51,429 bases of DNA, from assembly GCA_018821305.1 (NCBI GenBank), contig JAHJMN010000088.1, forward strand, positions 1 through 51,429, given 5' to 3'. This document shows, in pieces, positions 239-41,181 of the stretch. A program made the translations under genes and the position numbers. Below the pieces are notes generated by a model. The model worked only from the letters and a program-made list of their open reading frames with translations, ran no database searches and had not been told where the DNA came from. This DNA is from Myxococcota bacterium. GTDB taxonomy: Bacteria; Myxococcota_A; Polyangia; HGW-17. Positions within the stretch are counted from its first letter, which is position 1. Every line of letters begins with the position of its first letter.

Positions 239-1747
239 TTATGGAGCGGTGTCTGAACAGCAGCGGAATCCAATGGTGGGAAGGGTTGAATCAGCTGCAG
301 CTTGACTGAGGTCGAATGCGCACGTAAGTCCGATATAAGGAGTATGATATTCACCGCCTCGAACAACGTAAACCGGCTCACCGTCAGTTGTTGTTCCGCG
401 TTGATCGTTTGTCCACTCGCGAAGATTTCCACTGAGGTCGTACACATCGTCATCTGAAGTGCACATCGTCATAGCCCCCGTTGGGACTACGGTATCATCA
501 TTGTCGCCACCGGACACCGTATCATAATCATAACCGTTACAGGTATCGTCTTCGTAAGTTATACCGTATGGGTAAGTATTCAAAAGAGAGCCCTCACAGG
601 CGGCCTGCCATTCGACGGCGGTACAAAGGCGTTTTCCAACTAAAGCGCAAGCTGAAGCAGCTTCAGAATATGATACATTGGCCCAGGGTAAAACCATGGA
701 TTTTGAGCAGGAGCGGGCGGATTTAACGCCTTCTGTAAAAGGTGTGGAATCCGGGCGGGATGCCTCGTAGCGATAGATCCAGAAATCAAAACCGCTGTGA
801 TTAATATGAATCATATCGTCAATAACACGGGCGGGATCCAGTGGATCCGGATTGTCGATAATTCCATCACAGTTATCATCAGCACCGTTGCAGACTTCTG
901 CTCGTGGCGCAGAAGGATCAGCATCGGGAAGAACGCTGAGATCACAGAAAGTAACAGAAGGATCCAGCGGATCACATGCTTTTTCACCGTAATCTCGACA
1001 AGCTCCAATGCCACCGTTATCACATTCCTGACCGATATCGGTCCACTCATCGTCTGCAATTCCATCACAGTCGCCATCGTGTCCATCGCAGAGGGTTTCG
1101 CTGTCGTAGATACCGTTGGGAATACGTGGATCGAACTCGACTCCTGTTCCATAATTACAGTACCATGTAGTAACAGCTGGTGTTCCACGACTGTCGCAGA
1201 CCATTACAGTTCCAGCACAGGGAGTGCCGGGCGTAGTGTTGCAAATTCCCACTGGCGGAGATGGAAGGTCTTCAGGCTCATCAACAGTACCATCACAGTC
1301 ATCGTCAATGCCGTTGCAGTCTTCATCCTGTGGCGGATAAAGGGGACAACGATATTCACAACCGGGCTGCTCAGAGTCCAGATCTGCATAACCCGGAGTG
1401 CAGGAGCTTATGACGCATTCACCTTCAACGCAGATGCTTGTAGCGTTGGGAGCGGTGCAAATGCGGCCACACGTACCGCAGTTTGAAGGGTCATTCATTT
1501 TGTCAAAACCGTTATCAACCACTCCATCGCAATCATCGTCGAGATTGTTGCAGATTTCGGTGGTTCCCGGAGGTATACAGATGGGGCCGGAATCGGCATC
1601 GGCATCGCCGGAATCAGCATCTTCCGCATCGGCATCGTTCATCGAACCGTCGGGGTTGTCGTTATTATGATAAATAAGAAACGGTCGGTTTTCACAGGAA
1701 AACGCTGTTGCAAGGATAGATAGAATTATAAAAATCGATGTTTTCAC
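239..1747 (-). CDS. MopE-repeat lipoprotein with C-terminal formylglycine-generating-enzyme (FGE/SUMF1) type domain
   Basis: The 502-residue product has a lipoprotein signal (lipobox AFSC, Cys18), then an Asp/Ala/Ser-rich acidic linker (about 36-54). Four Cys/Asp repeats of MopE type follow, such as CNNLDDDCDGVVDNG near residue 66 and CNGADDNCDGIIDN near 285. These have Ca-loop-like Asp spacing. The last 190 residues match the FGE-sulfatase fold: GFDFWIYRYEASRP, VGKRLCTAVEWQAACEG, DLSGNLREWTND, VVRGGEY and a closing GFRCC. In this family the fold often serves as a binding or scaffold domain and is not always catalytic, so oxidase activity is not claimed. The start is GTG at 1747, and its GTGA overlaps the stop of the upstream VWA gene, implying translational coupling and a shared surface role. 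Confidence 0.85.
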   Translation of the reverse strand: MKTSIFIILSILATAFSCENRPFLIYHNNDNPDGSMNDADAEDADSGDADADSGPICIPPGTTEICNNLDDDCDGVVDNGFDKMNDPSNCGTCGRICTAPNATSICVEGECVISSCTPGYADLDSEQPGCEYRCPLYPPQDEDCNGIDDDCDGTVDEPEDLPSPPVGICNTTPGTPCAGTVMVCDSRGTPAVTTWYCNYGTGVEFDPRIPNGIYDSETLCDGHDGDCDGIADDEWTDIGQECDNGGIGACRDYGEKACDPLDPSVTFCDLSVLPDADPSAPRAEVCNGADDNCDGIIDNPDPLDPARVIDDMIHINHSGFDFWIYRYEASRPDSTPFTEGVKSARSCSKSMVLPWANVSYSEAASACALVGKRLCTAVEWQAACEGSLLNTYPYGITYEDDTCNGYDYDTVSGGDNDDTVVPTGAMTMCTSDDDVYDLSGNLREWTNDQRGTTTDGEPVYVVRGGEYHTPYIGLTCAFDLSQAAADSTLPTIGFRCCSDTAP

Positions 1748-4700
1748 AGGGCACCTCCGCGACGGAATAGGACCGCCCCAAAGATGAGAAGTATGATTAA
1801 AAAGCTGTTATTAAAGGGCTTTTCGTTTGAAGCAGCATTCTGACAGGAACATCCGTTTCCTCCGATTGGAAGGATTTTTTCAGGATCCGGGGGAGGCGTA
1901 TTACTCGTACATCGCGCATTTCCATCGGGCTCAATTACGCATGAATAACCCGCAGGGCAATCCATAAGGCTGCACTTATTTGGCACACATTCCCCGGGGG
2001 GGATACAGACGGTACCCGGTTCACAGTAAACGGATGGACAGGGATTTGTCAGACAGTTTCCTTCAGAACAATACTGATGAGATTCACATTCCACTTCAGC
2101 ACAGGGGTCAGATACGCATTCTCCAAGGTAATTGCAACTGGTTCCATCAGGGCATTTTTCATCCCAGCAGGCTTTTACACATGTGCCGTTACTGCAGTAT
2201 TCTCCTGAATCACAGGATATATCAGTACAGGGGTCAGTTATGCAATTGCCTTCGTAGCAGATGAGAGCTCCTTCGCAGCCGAGGTAGTGACAGTCACGAC
2301 AGACGCCCAGAACACAGGTTTCATTATCTTCACACTGAACCTCTTCGCACAAGTTAACGCATTGGTTGTTGACGCAAACTTCATCCGGAGCGCAGTTGGC
2401 GCAGGGCCCTGGCATACATATATCCAGTGTTTCTTCATCAATCGTGAACTGCTGGCAGATTTCACCACCACCGCAGGGGAATTCCGTGTCATTGCACTCA
2501 GCCCGGCAACTGCCTTGAATACACCAGTAGTTTTCAGGGCAGGGTGCTTCATTATCCACTTCTCCGTCGCAATTGTCATCGAGACCATTGCACATTTCAA
2601 CTCCGGGAAGTACACCACCAACACAAACAAGATTACCACCGGCGCATATCCATTGGCCGACTTCGCAAACGCCTTCTTCTTCACCGCAGGGTAAATTAAG
2701 GAGTGGATCATCTTCATCGATGGCTCCATTGCAGTCATTATCAACGCCGTCGCAAACTTCCGGACCTGATGGAACGCAGGTGGATGAGCAGTTCAGACCT
2801 TCATCCACAAGTCCGTCGCAGTCGTTGTCGATTCCGTCACATACTTCTGTATCCGGTGTAGCTCCGGGATTGTCGATTACGCATTCAACACCGAGGCCGT
2901 CGGCGCGACACTGCCAGATTCCTGTGCCGAGACATGGCCCAATGCCTCCATCATCACAGGGTGTACCCTTTGCCGGGAAGTCCTCATCGATCTGACCGTT
3001 ACAGTTATCGTCGAGGTCATTGCATGTTTCATAAACGATGCTGTCGGCGACGATTGAAGCTAAAGCTGCAGCAAGATCGTTTTCATTTCCCACGAAGAAA
3101 GCGTTTCTTGTGCCGGAAATTGAGCCTGCATTGGCAATCTGGTTGAGAGCAGCTTCTTCAGTAGGGAGAACACTGAATCCGATAACGTAGGTTTCGAGGC
3201 CACTGTTTACCCGAAGATCCGTTGCCGCTTGAACAGGGTTTCCACGGCAGGTTTCTGTTCCGTCTGTTAAAAGGATTACAGCATATTTTCGGCATGAAGA
3301 AATGCGATCTTCAGCTTTTGTTCGGTCGAGATAGGTTTTGACGGCATAAAGAGAATCCGCCAAAGGAGTGGGGCCTGTACCGCGAAGTTCACAGTCACCA
3401 CCGGAAGCGAAATCACAGTGGTCACCTTCAGTTCGATCGTTCTGGAAGTTCGTTTCTTTGTGGTCAAGCCACATGAGATGCTGATTTACGGGTTTTTCAA
3501 ATCCCACGAGGATGTCTGCTCCACGCCGGGGGCTGCCACAGGAGCCGGCATAGTTGACACAAGCATCGGAAGAAGGCGAATCCGGAAAAATCGGGATATT
3601 CATCCCACCGTTGTTCACCGTGCAAACCTGAGTTCCCGTATTGTTTGTAGGATTATCATAGGTACAGCAGATGCCCGCACACTCAAAAGATTTTGCCAAC
3701 TGGCAGTTGACACCGACACCGGTCCCTTGAGCGAAGCGAGCCATACCGAAGTCAATGTCTGGAATATATGCGCTGATAACATTGCTCAGCGCGATCTTAG
3801 CTTTATAAAGGCGGGAATCGTTACCGGCGATCCCGTCGGAATTGGTGTCGATCCCTTCGTGTCCAGCACTTCCGTCACCAAAGGTGAAGCGGGCGGACAA
3901 ATCCCCAAGCATGGAGCCGGAAGTGTCAACAATGACCATGAATCGGCTTCGAGTATCGGTAATTGGTGCCTGACAGCTTTCAATTTCGTTTGGTACGCAG
4001 TCCCCGGGAAGGCCGCTTGTGCATTCATCAACAGATGCTTCACACAGGCCACTGCCGCATGTTTCAGTTCCAAAACCGTTATCAACTACACCGTCGAAAT
4101 CATTGTCGTATCCGTCACAGAGTTCCCCCCGGTAAACTCCGGAAAGCTGAAGTTCACCGGCGCCACCACCTGCTTCGCCGGCACAGGAGCAAACCCCACC
4201 GGGAGAACCGTTTACGTAAAAATTGGCACCGGAATCAATAACAGCAGCGGTTCCCGATAACACGGAAATAATACCGCCACCGCCACCGCCACCACAATCG
4301 TCACAGGTGCCTGAAGTTTGTGCACAAGGAGGGCATTCGCCTGCAGGAAAAGCCTGAGTATTTCCCCCGAGTCCGCCCGCAGCAGAAATTTTTGCAGCGG
4401 TTCCAATATTTACATCGTCTCCCACGAGAAGAACCGAGCCACCAGCGCCGCCACCACCAGAGTCGTTTTGATAACCGCAACCTCGTCGACCGTCGGCAAG
4501 GATGTTCCCTTCAATTAGAAGGGAACCCGTTCCACCGGCGGAAACAGCAGCCAGAACTATGCGTCCACCGCCGGCGCCACCGGTGATACATCCAAAACCG
4601 TCCCCGTCACGACATCCCTTGTCGCCACCAGCACCACCGAATTCGATTTCGTATATTGAATGTGAATATGCCTGACCGGCTACCGTGGGAAGACCATCAT

Positions 4701-5205
4701 TATTATAACAGGAAGTTGTTACAGAACATGCTGTTCCCCCAGCATTCAGTGAGTTTCCGCAGTCTTCTTCCCAGTGCCCTGGGAAAACACAGCCGGAGAC
4801 AGGACAGTCTTTAGTTCCTCGACCGCCGGATCCGAAGTGAGCACCACCGCCACCGGAATCCCGGACGCTGCACCCGCCGGCACCACCGCCATCCGCTGTT
4901 GGCGACGGTCCATCACCACAAAGGACGGGTTGATAGCCTGATCCGGTAGCAACAATATAAGATGTCGCATCCACATAAATTGATGTGGCCACAATCTGGA
5001 GGTTTCCAGTGTTTGTCTTATCTGTTCCGTTGAACTTGGGTACTCGGATAACACCGCCGTTTATAACCTGCACGGTGTCGTACCAGTGAAGTCCCCCCAA
5101 TTCAATTTCGGTGCCGTCAACGATCAGATCCTGAGCTGAGACAGAATTGGAGTAAAAAGTAAGTGTTAAAAAGATTCCGAAAAGGAGGCTGATACGATTA
5201 AACAT
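1744..5205 (-). CDS. large surface protein: Gly-rich region, VWA domain, MopE repeats, Cys-rich repeats, MYXO-CTERM-like tail
   Basis: The 1153-residue product has a Sec signal (cleavage after VSA near residue 24). A Gly-rich segment follows to about residue 355, with clusters such as GGGGAGG, then one MopE-like repeat. A von Willebrand A domain has an intact MIDAS start (VIVDTSGSM) and a LLTDGTETC strand. More MopE repeats follow (CNDLDDNCNGQIDED, CDGIDNDCDGLVDEG, CDGVDNDCNGAIDED, CNGLDDNCDGEVDN), then many short EGF-like Cys modules. The C terminus has GNGCSC, a hydrophobic helix (SFLIILLIFGAVLF) and RRGGAL. That is the layout of MYXO-CTERM sorting signals, where the Cys is processed for surface anchoring. 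Adhesion or metal-dependent ligand binding is inferred. It is the first gene of a coupled pair with the FGE/MopE lipoprotein. Confidence 0.88.
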   Translation of the reverse strand: MFNRISLLFGIFLTLTFYSNSVSAQDLIVDGTEIELGGLHWYDTVQVINGGVIRVPKFNGTDKTNTGNLQIVATSIYVDATSYIVATGSGYQPVLCGDGPSPTADGGGAGGCSVRDSGGGGAHFGSGGRGTKDCPVSGCVFPGHWEEDCGNSLNAGGTACSVTTSCYNNDGLPTVAGQAYSHSIYEIEFGGAGGDKGCRDGDGFGCITGGAGGGRIVLAAVSAGGTGSLLIEGNILADGRRGCGYQNDSGGGGAGGSVLLVGDDVNIGTAAKISAAGGLGGNTQAFPAGECPPCAQTSGTCDDCGGGGGGGIISVLSGTAAVIDSGANFYVNGSPGGVCSCAGEAGGGAGELQLSGVYRGELCDGYDNDFDGVVDNGFGTETCGSGLCEASVDECTSGLPGDCVPNEIESCQAPITDTRSRFMVIVDTSGSMLGDLSARFTFGDGSAGHEGIDTNSDGIAGNDSRLYKAKIALSNVISAYIPDIDFGMARFAQGTGVGVNCQLAKSFECAGICCTYDNPTNNTGTQVCTVNNGGMNIPIFPDSPSSDACVNYAGSCGSPRRGADILVGFEKPVNQHLMWLDHKETNFQNDRTEGDHCDFASGGDCELRGTGPTPLADSLYAVKTYLDRTKAEDRISSCRKYAVILLTDGTETCRGNPVQAATDLRVNSGLETYVIGFSVLPTEEAALNQIANAGSISGTRNAFFVGNENDLAAALASIVADSIVYETCNDLDDNCNGQIDEDFPAKGTPCDDGGIGPCLGTGIWQCRADGLGVECVIDNPGATPDTEVCDGIDNDCDGLVDEGLNCSSTCVPSGPEVCDGVDNDCNGAIDEDDPLLNLPCGEEEGVCEVGQWICAGGNLVCVGGVLPGVEMCNGLDDNCDGEVDNEAPCPENYWCIQGSCRAECNDTEFPCGGGEICQQFTIDEETLDICMPGPCANCAPDEVCVNNQCVNLCEEVQCEDNETCVLGVCRDCHYLGCEGALICYEGNCITDPCTDISCDSGEYCSNGTCVKACWDEKCPDGTSCNYLGECVSDPCAEVECESHQYCSEGNCLTNPCPSVYCEPGTVCIPPGECVPNKCSLMDCPAGYSCVIEPDGNARCTSNTPPPDPEKILPIGGNGCSCQNAASNEKPFNNSFLIILLIFGAVLFRRGGAL

Positions 5206-17797: not shown

Positions 17798-18384
17798 CTC
17801 GTCGGATACCATTCTGCACATGTCGAATACCATTTTGCACATGACAGATGGCACCTGTGCAACCGACGGATATCGTTTTGCACTCTGCAGATGGCAGTTG
17901 TGCAGGTGACGGATGACGTTTTCCACTCTGCAGATGGCAGTTGTGCAGGCGACGGATGACATTTTGCACTCGTCGGATACCACCTGGACACCCGACGGAT
18001 GACGTTTTGCAACCTGCAGATGCCTATTGTGCAGGCGACGGATAACGTTTTGCACCCGACGGATACCACATGGACACCCGACGGATGACGTATTACACTC
18101 TGCAGATGGCAGTTGTGCAGGCGACGGATGACGTTTTGCAACCTGCAGACGGCAGTTGTGCAGTCGACGGATAACGTTTTGCACTCGTCGGATACCACCT
18201 GGACACCCGACGGATGCCATTTTGCAACCTGCAGACGGCAGTTGTGCAGTCGACGGATAACGTTTTGCACTCGTCGGATACCACCTGGACACCCGACGGA
18301 TGTCGTTTTGCAACCTGCAGATGGCAGTTGTGCAGTCGACGGATAACGCTTTGCACTCGTCGGATATCGTTGTGCAGTCGACGG
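17798..18384. repeat. tandem array of 21-22-bp monomers with an 86-bp higher-order unit
   Basis: About 27 related monomers, each 21 or 22 bp, are typified by CGACGGATAACGTTTTGCACT, CGTCGGATACCACCTGGACA, CGACGGATGCCATTTTGCAA and TGCAGACGGCAGTTGTGCAG. In the right half these four types repeat as an 86-bp block (for example, GTTGTGCAGTCGAC recurs at 18155, 18241 and 18327). Frames stay open for up to 183 codons on the minus strand and also on the plus strand, only because the monomers lack stops. An 86-bp period rotates the frame at every unit, so coding is unlikely. There is no CRISPR-type unique-spacer pattern. Confidence 0.9.
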
Positions 18385-38055: not shown

Positions 38056-39798
38056 TCAGTTCTTGAGGGATTTATAAAATTCAGATTTACGGAAATCTTT
38101 GAACATCGGCTCCGCATCAATCTGGCTGAACATCATTTCAACGCCATCATAATGATGTTCAATTGCTTTTCGGATGCAATCGGTAGCGTTTTCAAAGTCA
38201 TCCATCTCAACGTAGAGGCATGCCGCATTAAAATAAACCGCAGGATTGCTTGGTGCATGAGGCAGACATTTATTAAGAAAATATTGATTAAGATCGGAGT
38301 CAACGTCCAGGCCGGTATTGTCTTTCTGCAAAACCCACAGTGCGTTGCAGAAAAGACTCAAATCGCGTTTTGGGGGATGGGGAGAACGGATCTCGCAAGC
38401 GAGACGGAATAATTGTCTGGCTATTTTATAATCCTCGCGCATAATTTTGTAGGCAGCAGCTCCTATATTATTGGCATAGTTATTTGATGCCGTATCTCCA
38501 TATCCATCCATCTGATCTGATAGCTTTTCCACAAATTCTTCAGTCAAATCCATATTTTCCGTTCGAATGAGCGAAAGCATTATGGGCCCGGCCATTTGCA
38601 GCATGAAATTATAGTCTACAGCCAGTTCCTCGATAGCCATGCGAAAAATCTCAACTGCCTTACTGTGGTTTCCCTCTTCAATTTCTGAAACAAGTGACAT
38701 TTCAAGCATTTCAACTACATCGGGATTAGACTTGTGAGTCTTATACCACTCCTCAGCTTCTGACAGATCATCCTTTTCCAGAAGCATTCCGAGTTTCACA
38801 TCGGCAAAAAAGCGATTCATGAAAGCACTGGAGATGCCATCAAATGGAGTTTCAATATAATTAAATATCTGTGAAATGGAGTAGATAAAAAGTTCTTCTT
38901 CTTTTTCTTCCATTTCCCAACTGCCGGGATTATCCCACAACGGAATAAGGTCATGTATAGAATTGAGACTTATCCTGTGCCACCATGACAGGTCTGTCCC
39001 CCCGGCTTCCCAATCCTCCCGACGAAACACATATTCAACAGGGCAGATGCCATGGATGAGTTCAATCCATCTTTCAATATGGGACTCAAAGGCATCAAGG
39101 GCAGCCTCACTGGCATAAAATAATTCACTGAGAGCATCATCATCATCATGACAATCGCAGTCGTCATCGCAGCAACCACAGTCTTCATCGTTACACTCAT
39201 TGTTTTGATCGTGACAATCGCACTCACAGTCGTCATCGTGACAATTACAGTCGCAATCGTCATCACAGCAATCGCAATCTTCATCATCACAGTCGCATTC
39301 GTGATCACAGCCACAATCAAAAACGGAAGATTCCGACTTAACTTTTTCAATTACTTTATCGGCATATCCCGGGCACTCATACGTGTCATGGATGTACATA
39401 TTTACAAACTGCTCACTCCCTGCCATGAGCATTTTTCCCGAAAAACTATCCATATCGGGTTTAATCGGCGAAGGTGCAAGATTTATAATTTCGACTTTTT
39501 CCTCATCCGTCGGAATTCGTGAAAAGCGAATTATAATTTCAGCCCATTCGTAATAATGTCCATATCCAGCGCCGAAAAAGGGAAATGGAGGGCGTTTTTC
39601 AGCATATCCGGCTGCCAGAAGGTCTTTTTTTAACTGATTAATTCTCAAATCTGCTTTTTCGTCGCTTTCGAAATCTTCTTCTACCGAAGCGGGCAATAAC
39701 CCAGAGCCGGATCTCATTATTACGAGTTTTTTCCCGGTGCGTGTAACTTCCATGGTTGTAGTTTTCCCGGATTCTTCGAGAGTAAAGCAGTAATTCAT
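38056..39798 (-). CDS. WGR-like/TPR-like protein with a dense Cys/Asp/His cluster
   Basis: The 580-residue product has three parts. Residues 1-75 look like a diverged WGR domain (TMEVTRTGKKLVIMRSGSG ... ADLRINQLKKDLLAAGY). Residues 161-221 are a remarkable cluster with 19 Cys and 4 His embedded in Asp (pattern CDC, CCDDDCDC, CHDDDC, CDCH). The remainder is helical with TPR-like C-terminal pieces (AYKIMREDYKIARQLFRLAC, NPAVYFNAACLYVEMDDFEN). No signal peptide is seen, so it is probably cytoplasmic. The cluster looks like a multi-metal thiolate site or metal buffer. No known family with all three parts is recognised. Confidence 0.85.
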   Translation of the reverse strand: MNYCFTLEESGKTTTMEVTRTGKKLVIMRSGSGLLPASVEEDFESDEKADLRINQLKKDLLAAGYAEKRPPFPFFGAGYGHYYEWAEIIIRFSRIPTDEEKVEIINLAPSPIKPDMDSFSGKMLMAGSEQFVNMYIHDTYECPGYADKVIEKVKSESSVFDCGCDHECDCDDEDCDCCDDDCDCNCHDDDCECDCHDQNNECNDEDCGCCDDDCDCHDDDDALSELFYASEAALDAFESHIERWIELIHGICPVEYVFRREDWEAGGTDLSWWHRISLNSIHDLIPLWDNPGSWEMEEKEEELFIYSISQIFNYIETPFDGISSAFMNRFFADVKLGMLLEKDDLSEAEEWYKTHKSNPDVVEMLEMSLVSEIEEGNHSKAVEIFRMAIEELAVDYNFMLQMAGPIMLSLIRTENMDLTEEFVEKLSDQMDGYGDTASNNYANNIGAAAYKIMREDYKIARQLFRLACEIRSPHPPKRDLSLFCNALWVLQKDNTGLDVDSDLNQYFLNKCLPHAPSNPAVYFNAACLYVEMDDFENATDCIRKAIEHHYDGVEMMFSQIDAEPMFKDFRKSEFYKSLKN

Positions 39799-40035: not shown

Positions 40036-41181
40036 ATGTCTGACAGTACTCTTAAAGGACGCATTATCAATCAGATAATGTCGAACGAGAAATATCGTAA
40101 ACTTATTCGTGAAATCCTTGATGATACACGTTATCACTTGCTCTTTGAATCCGGGAAACCGGAGATTTACGAAGGATTAGTTGCGGTTAAGAACAGTGTT
40201 TTTGGACGCATGATTCGTCTTGAAGCATCAAGTGTCTGCCAACTTCGATGCCGTGCATGCTCTACGGCCCGGGGAAAAAATCGCAGGGGTGTAATTGGCT
40301 GGGGCTTTCTCAAATTCGATGACTTCAGGCGGCTCATTGATGAAAATCCCGATATTCGTACGATTGAGATCTCCAATTGGGGCGAAATATTTCTGAATCC
40401 CGAACTGGAACGCATAGTACGATACGCTTTTCATCACAATGTGCGTCTTAAAGCGGCCAATGGTGTTAACCTCAATACCGTGTCGCCTTCCATGCTGGAA
40501 AGCCTGGTGAAATATCGTTTTAATTACCTGAACGTTTCCCTTGATGGGGCCACTCATGAAACATATAAGATTTACCGGCGCAAAGGCTCGTTCCATCAGG
40601 TAATTCGTAATGTGGAAATGATCAATGAGTTCAAAAAGAAGTATGACTCTAATCTTCCCAAAATGAGCTGGCAGTTTGTAGTTTTCGGGCATAACGAGCA
40701 CGAAATAGATAAAGCTGCGGAAAAGGCCCGGGAGCTCGGAATGGAATTTCGTCCCAAACTGAATCATACTCCTCAGTATTCTCCCGTTGTAAATTCTGAA
40801 CTGGTAAAAAAGAAAACCGGTATCGGTGCTGCCTCCCGGGATGAGTTTGACAAATTGAAACGAAAAGCTTATTCACGCCCCTGCACTCAGTTATGGGATT
40901 CACCGCAGATTAACTGGGATGGCGCTTTACTTGGCTGCTGCGTTAATAAGTTCGGATCTTTCGGAAACGTCTTTGATGAAGGACTTGACGGTGCTTTGAA
41001 TAACGAGAAATTCACCTATGCAAAGCAGATGATTGCTGGTCTTGTTCCTCCACGGGAAGATATCCCGTGCCTTCAATGTAAAGTCTGGAAAAAATACAAT
41101 GGCGATGAGCGAACTCTTCCTGCTTCTTCAACTGCAGAATACCTCACACACACTCTCGAAAAAATTCTCACTCAGAAGTGA
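40036..41181 (+). CDS. radical SAM protein with SPASM-like C terminus
   Basis: The 381-residue product has the [4Fe-4S]/SAM motif CQLRCRAC (Cys68, Cys72, Cys75), followed by the expected EISNWGEIFLNPEL (GxxExx-type strand) and NVSLDGATHETYKIYRRKGS. The C-terminal region has CTQLWDSPQINWDGALLGCC with FGSFGNV and a closing CLQC, typical of SPASM auxiliary-cluster domains. Relatives mature peptides or modify sugars and lipids. No precursor peptide gene is obvious next to it. GGGAGT lies upstream of the ATG. It stands alone between gaps containing repeat DNA. Confidence 0.88.
   Translation: MSDSTLKGRIINQIMSNEKYRKLIREILDDTRYHLLFESGKPEIYEGLVAVKNSVFGRMIRLEASSVCQLRCRACSTARGKNRRGVIGWGFLKFDDFRRLIDENPDIRTIEISNWGEIFLNPELERIVRYAFHHNVRLKAANGVNLNTVSPSMLESLVKYRFNYLNVSLDGATHETYKIYRRKGSFHQVIRNVEMINEFKKKYDSNLPKMSWQFVVFGHNEHEIDKAAEKARELGMEFRPKLNHTPQYSPVVNSELVKKKTGIGAASRDEFDKLKRKAYSRPCTQLWDSPQINWDGALLGCCVNKFGSFGNVFDEGLDGALNNEKFTYAKQMIAGLVPPREDIPCLQCKVWKKYNGDERTLPASSTAEYLTHTLEKILTQK

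Follow-up and report, generated by a model that had tools for sequence, protein, structure and literature searches.

A gene in a draft Myxococcota genome encodes a protein in which 61 consecutive residues include nineteen cysteines. Does this cluster belong to a conserved metal or redox sensor, as an earlier note on this DNA thought conceivable; is it a metal-binding segment of a single lineage; or has it grown by neutral expansion of a tolerant loop? We have examined the gene in its window, by which we mean the whole 51,429-nucleotide stretch of contig JAHJMN010000088.1 (assembly GCA_018821305.1) that was analysed.

A dense cysteine cluster within a 580-amino acid protein

The coding sequence translates from an ATG start into 580 amino acids. 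By eye its start carries no signal-peptide-like sequence, in keeping with the cytoplasmic location proposed before. The features of the gene, in window coordinates, are as follows.

38056-39798, minus strand: coding sequence with WGR-like fold, unnamed domain carrying the Cys/Asp insert, and TPR helices (translation, Pfam, alignment, AlphaFold2 model)
39601-39798, minus strand: WGR-like domain, residues 1-66, four strands and a helix (Pfam matches of homologues; pLDDT mostly >90)
39361-39600, minus strand: first half of the unnamed domain, residues 67-146, FPFFGAG..Y.EWA (homology, alignments)
39127-39360, minus strand: expanded loop in the unnamed domain, residues 147-224 (loop length against relatives)
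39136-39318, minus strand: Cys/Asp/His cluster, residues 161-221 (composition; segments with pLDDT <50 within 163-219)
39247-39291, minus strand: repeat unit 1, residues 170-184, CDDEDCDCCDDDCDC (repeat-unit codon comparison)
39151-39195, minus strand: repeat unit 2, residues 202-216, CNDEDCGCCDDDCDC (repeat-unit codon comparison)
38899-39126, minus strand: second half of the unnamed domain, residues 225-300, REDWEAGGTDLSWWHRIS (homology, alignments)
38059-38898, minus strand: TPR/helical repeat region, residues 301-580 (TPR_8, 2.1e-6; TPR_END_plus; Foldseek; helices)

Residues 161-221, lying 1-2 bases within the span 39135-39320 given earlier, comprise 19 Cys, 26 Asp, 5 Glu, 4 His, 4 Asn, 2 Gly and 1 Gln; there are no aromatic residues. 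Cysteine makes up 19 of the 61 residues (~31%), arranged in nine CxC and two CC motifs, and the remaining ~520 residues of the protein contain eight more. When the protein's own letters were shuffled 5000 times, the best 61-residue window held at most 12 Cys, with a mean of 6.6. By count and by shuffling the cluster of 19 Cys and 4 His is real, and its composition bears out the earlier description of a metallothionein-like cysteine density in a strongly acidic setting. The regularity ascribed to its CDC and CC pairs is only partly present. Successive cysteines are separated by 2,4,2,5,2,1,4,2,2,5,2,2,7,5,2,1,4,2 positions; the unit CxCC-x3-CxC occurs twice (residues 175-184 and 207-216, 32 residues apart), but otherwise the spacing is not strictly periodic.

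The protein has a WGR-like - unnamed domain - TPR architecture

The sole Pfam match of the window protein is C-terminal, to TPR_8 (E = 2.1e-6, 27.8 bits against a cutoff of 25.7). TPR_END_plus matches at 2e-6, below that model's cutoff. An AlphaFold2 model of the whole protein, calculated from a 20-row alignment, has a pLDDT of 85.8 and a pTM of 0.76, with helices throughout residues 301-580. Comparison of the whole model with the PDB using Foldseek returned TPR proteins, and comparison with a viral library returned weak TPR matches together with pithovirus DNA ligases over ~110 columns. The curated match, the modelled helices and the Foldseek matches agree with the TPR-like repeats suggested before.

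The N-terminus was assigned through homologues. In the window protein itself Pfam gives no WGR match there even at E ≤ 10. The aligned N-termini of two homologues, L053 from Xanthocytophaga flavus and L051 from a Cytophagales MAG, match WGR (PF05406) at 3.9e-8 and 1.2e-4 respectively, both above the curated cutoff, and the four strands plus helix modelled for the window protein are consistent with a WGR fold. The WGR-like domain of the earlier note is supported in this way. WGR domains are known from DNA-repair and regulatory proteins. By way of the same homologues the N-terminal fold appears to resemble that of PARP, MolR and the WGR-DNA ligase fusions; unlike these, the window protein has no catalytic partner domain, and its WGR-like domain is joined to an undescribed domain and TPRs.

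That middle domain has no Pfam entry. Its motifs are FPFFGAG..YFEWA ... EDxEAGGTxLSxWH, and two signatures mark it, F-x-F-x-GAG-x3-Y-x-E in its first half and R-x2-D-x-E-x-GGT-x-L-x2-WH in its second. Y-x-E is not universal, since M replaces the E in the Streptosporangiaceae copies. A Kofleriaceae MAG supplied the first example of the domain, a stand-alone protein of ~200 amino acids; further copies came from Nannocystis, Streptosporangiaceae and additional genomes. In the ~200-amino acid Streptosporangiaceae proteins the domain stands alone, and in Bacteroidota and in this window it is joined to WGR, TPR or both. WGR, middle domain and TPR occur together in L051, L053 and L072, the last from a genome of the same order as L053, and three Chitinophagaceae proteins (L054, L055 and L056) have the arrangement without WGR. 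A single-sequence structure prediction of one stand-alone copy (L031) gave a pLDDT of 34. The three-part architecture, with its WGR-like start, is supported, and the protein family is sparsely distributed and largely undescribed. The unnamed domain is found in Actinomycetota, Bacteroidota and Myxococcota and deserves a family entry of its own.

Immediately upstream of the Xanthocytophaga homologue lies a gene (L053:2685-3770) whose product looks like an ATP-dependent DNA ligase and starts with a WGR-like region, a hint that the family may be linked to repair. In a Kofleriaceae MAG (L002:1441-2769, genome G052) the related TPR end carries a fused SUKH/SMI1-KNR4 domain, and a SUKH-like ORF was recognised by eye near the Sediminibacterium homologue (L055:2573-3067); these hint at a connection with immunity proteins. 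No PADLOC model matches the window protein, and on that ground an anti-phage defence system was rejected. Weak AbiA matches were found in L053, within its helical region.

The cluster is an insert that the recovered relatives lack

In alignments the cluster lies between the two halves of the unnamed domain, in a variable acidic loop. The layout proposed before, with the cluster between WGR and TPR parts, holds for the two neighbours, but the cluster interrupts a third conserved domain and is not an interdomain linker. In the structure prediction the domains are modelled confidently and the cluster is an unstructured loop inside the middle domain. pLDDT falls below 50 at residues 163-172, 175-204 and 207-219, and residues 163-219 are the only unstructured part of the model. 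The metal-free cluster is thus predicted to be a disordered surface loop.

The full-length relatives are the Bacteroidota proteins L053, L051 and L072. L053 and L051 can be aligned over their whole length with the window protein at 39-40% identity, L051 having fewer of the helical repeats. From Y140 to W244 the window protein has 104 residues, 20 of them Cys. The same Tyr-Trp stretch is mostly 32-42 residues in the relatives (~42 in L053 and L072), with a maximum of 49 in L057. In ~25 proteins that consist of the middle domain alone, the loop at this site is short, freely varying, often acidic and essentially Cys-free. The loops of L044, L049, L054, L055 and L056 were judged from alignments, and are short and Cys-free; L060 and L063 were left out of the loop measurement as too divergent or broken. 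Thus L053, L072, L051, L054-L056 and the Streptosporangiaceae, Nannocystis and Kofleriaceae proteins have the same middle domain as the window protein, but in these Bacteroidota and other relatives the loop measures ~20-50 residues with 0-1 Cys. We conclude that the segment is an insertion at this position, absent from the recovered relatives.

The earlier note held that conserved cysteine spacing would support a function, and that homologues with the flanking domains and a freely varying, non-cysteine linker would refute the idea. Homologues of the second kind are what the relatives provide. No cysteine spacing is conserved in them, and a family-wide conserved spacing was rejected. Because the relatives' loop is short and holds at most one Cys, a conserved metal or redox sensor throughout the WGR/TPR family is unsupported.

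Origin of the protein and of the insert

A tree of the middle domain groups the window protein with five Bacteroidota sequences with support of 100/99, to be read with caution for long branches. The protein lies inside a Bacteroidota clade though its host, whose own relatives include Kofleriaceae and Nannocystis, is a Myxococcota MAG. The order-level genomes that were searched contain no full-length relative. The simplest reading of these sequence relationships is horizontal transfer from a Bacteroidota-like donor, which probably accounts for the presence of the protein. Searches with tblastn gave no match to the window protein in either phage or plasmid collections, and there was none in viral contigs; a phage or plasmid origin was rejected on this basis. 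The insert is absent from the outgroups and from the closest Bacteroidota relatives alike, and hence arose on the branch of the window protein after the split from them.

Comparison with known cysteine-rich proteins

The Cys/Asp segment has no match in Pfam, NCBIfam, PHROG or PDB sequences, and we therefore rejected a known cysteine-rich family as its identity. Weak matches to RhoA in the PDB (E 0.3-0.6) were treated as chance. No metallothionein family profile matches the segment at E ≤ 10. In its cysteine content, its CxC and CC motifs and its lack of aromatics it is nevertheless like the metallothioneins (SmtA/BmtA type, PF02069, and the superfamily), and like them it is predicted to be disordered without metal. 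It is unlike them in that half of it is Asp/Glu, and in being a loop insert in a 580-amino acid protein and not a small stand-alone one. Among the titles and abstracts listed in literature searches, which covered acidic inserts rich in cysteine, metallothioneins of bacteria and links between WGR and immunity, none deals with this architecture.

A look-alike cluster occurs in a second Myxococcota genome, G385, first met through the middle-domain model. It lies in the middle of a protein of ~193 amino acids spread over two contig ends (L029:1378-1833 and L075:3-263). Like the window protein, this small G385 protein has a Cys/Asp cluster, which in G385 reads DCECDDEGCDC...CDDDCGCGC, but it has no detectable homology to the window protein outside the cluster. 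It belongs to no Pfam family, and a search of 71 genomes gave no relative of it. A model of the cluster built from the window segment and the G385 look-alike matched once in 310 class-level genomes, this being the cluster of the window itself, and once more in 379 phylum-level genomes; the latter is the G385 sequence that was used to build the model, and so is found by construction and is not independent. It is unlikely that acidic Cys/Asp segments recur in Myxococcota as inserts in surface loops of unrelated cytoplasmic proteins, where selection would keep them as tethered metal buffers or as switches responsive to metal. If they did, a metallothionein-like function would be distributed in the form of loop inserts, and not of proteins in their own right.

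Two large proteins encoded elsewhere in the window (239-5205) have repeated C(N/D)GxD(D/N)xCDGxxD motifs resembling the metal-binding motifs of MopE type.

Metal buffer or neutral expansion

The explanation we favor, whose chances we judge to be about even, is that a permissive loop of a transferred WGR-TPR protein has acquired, in this lineage alone, a metallothionein-like insert that would serve as a metal buffer. A cytoplasmic WGR - unnamed domain - TPR protein would have been gained by horizontal transfer from a Bacteroidota-like source. The variable acidic surface loop of its middle domain would then have expanded in the window's lineage, partly via duplication of a short unit, to give a disordered Cys/Asp/His segment. 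In the reducing cytoplasm the CxC and CC motifs, with the carboxylates and the four histidines, could bind a thiophilic metal in metallothionein fashion, candidates being Zn, Cu(I) and Cd. The main role of the insert would be that of a tethered metal buffer or scavenger, and the core activity would reside in the WGR, middle and TPR domains independently of it. From its sequence, metal binding by the insert is plausible. Counting in favor of this explanation are the loop difference from the relatives, the confinement of predicted disorder to the insert, the place of the protein in the tree, the codon differences between the repeat units given below, the cysteine density with its CxC and CC motifs, and the look-alike cluster with an unrelated flank in the G385 protein. 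Counting against it, the insert is in no relative and so has no cross-species conservation, there is no metallothionein family match, and reading the listed neighbouring ORFs by eye brought up no gene for metal homeostasis. If the insert does bind metal, an unrelated protein has gained a metallothionein-like segment by insertion into one of its loops. This would show a route for adding metal-buffering capacity to a scaffold, and would allow ideas on the origin and persistence of such segments to be tested.

The strongest competing explanation is that the insert has no function. A tolerant acidic loop would have grown by slippage and duplication, acquiring Cys alongside Asp. The loop is indeed often acidic and variable in the relatives, the insert is disordered and confined to one lineage, and the segment contains imperfect short tandem repeats of 27 and 21 bases. 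But changing Asp to Cys requires two base changes per codon (GAY to TGY), and on general grounds it would be unusually costly to carry nineteen free thiols without any benefit. The repeat units also argue against it. EDCDCCDDDCDC and EDCGCCDDDCDC are identical at 11 of 12 residues, and their codons differ at 5 of 12 third positions compared with 1 of 24 first and second positions. Silent positions between the units are near saturation, yet the residues are kept. The contrast has p = 0.010 by Fisher's test and p = 0.0085 by neutral simulation, values that are optimistic given that the pair was picked for similarity and the sample is tiny. This one pair of units, chosen after the fact, suggests that residues of the insert have been retained by selection. 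Moreover, about half of the identical residue pairs, taken over all offsets, differ in codon, and the segment is therefore not a fresh product of slippage. On balance we consider a functionless expansion less likely than not, while still a serious competitor. Were it correct, the insert would be a clean warning that the cysteine density of a single sequence is not proof of function.

Sensor, modification substrate or artefact

Returning to function, the insert might be a dedicated sensor, in which metal or oxidation folds the loop and so switches the WGR/TPR part. In the model the loop lies in the middle of a folded domain, where its ordering could alter that domain, and the company that WGR domains keep would suit such a role. 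However, the relatives manage without the insert, inspection by eye of the listed window ORFs of at least 150 amino acids brought out no gene for metal homeostasis or stress, and nineteen cysteines are far above what is generally known of sensor sites. We consider a dedicated sensor unlikely.

The Cys-protein gene appears to be monocistronic. Upstream, divergently transcribed and 237 bases away, is a radical SAM gene (40036-41181) with weak matches to radical SAM/SPASM maturase families, which raises the idea that the cysteine-rich segment is the substrate of a divergent radical SAM enzyme in a peptide-modification pair. However, these matches are far below every family cutoff. Furthermore, five order-level relatives that have no Cys protein encode copies of the radical SAM protein with 57-66% identity, and beside these copies there is none of the other nine window genes tested. 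A RiPP pair was thus rejected, and we regard the substrate role as very improbable.

Equally improbable is an assembly or frame artefact: the genome is a draft and the segment has short repeats, but a single open frame runs through it without a stop, codon usage is ordinary (TGT:TGC 11:8 for Cys and GAT:GAC 18:8 for Asp, compared with 95:111 and 280:170 over 14 window ORFs), and because conserved domain sequence continues in the same frame on either side it is not a frame error.

Tandem repeats are also found elsewhere in the window. At 17833-18384 there are ~13 tandem copies of a 43-base unit with a higher-order period of 215 bases, and near the contig end (50713-51035) an 84-base unit is present in 3.8 copies of 96% identity.
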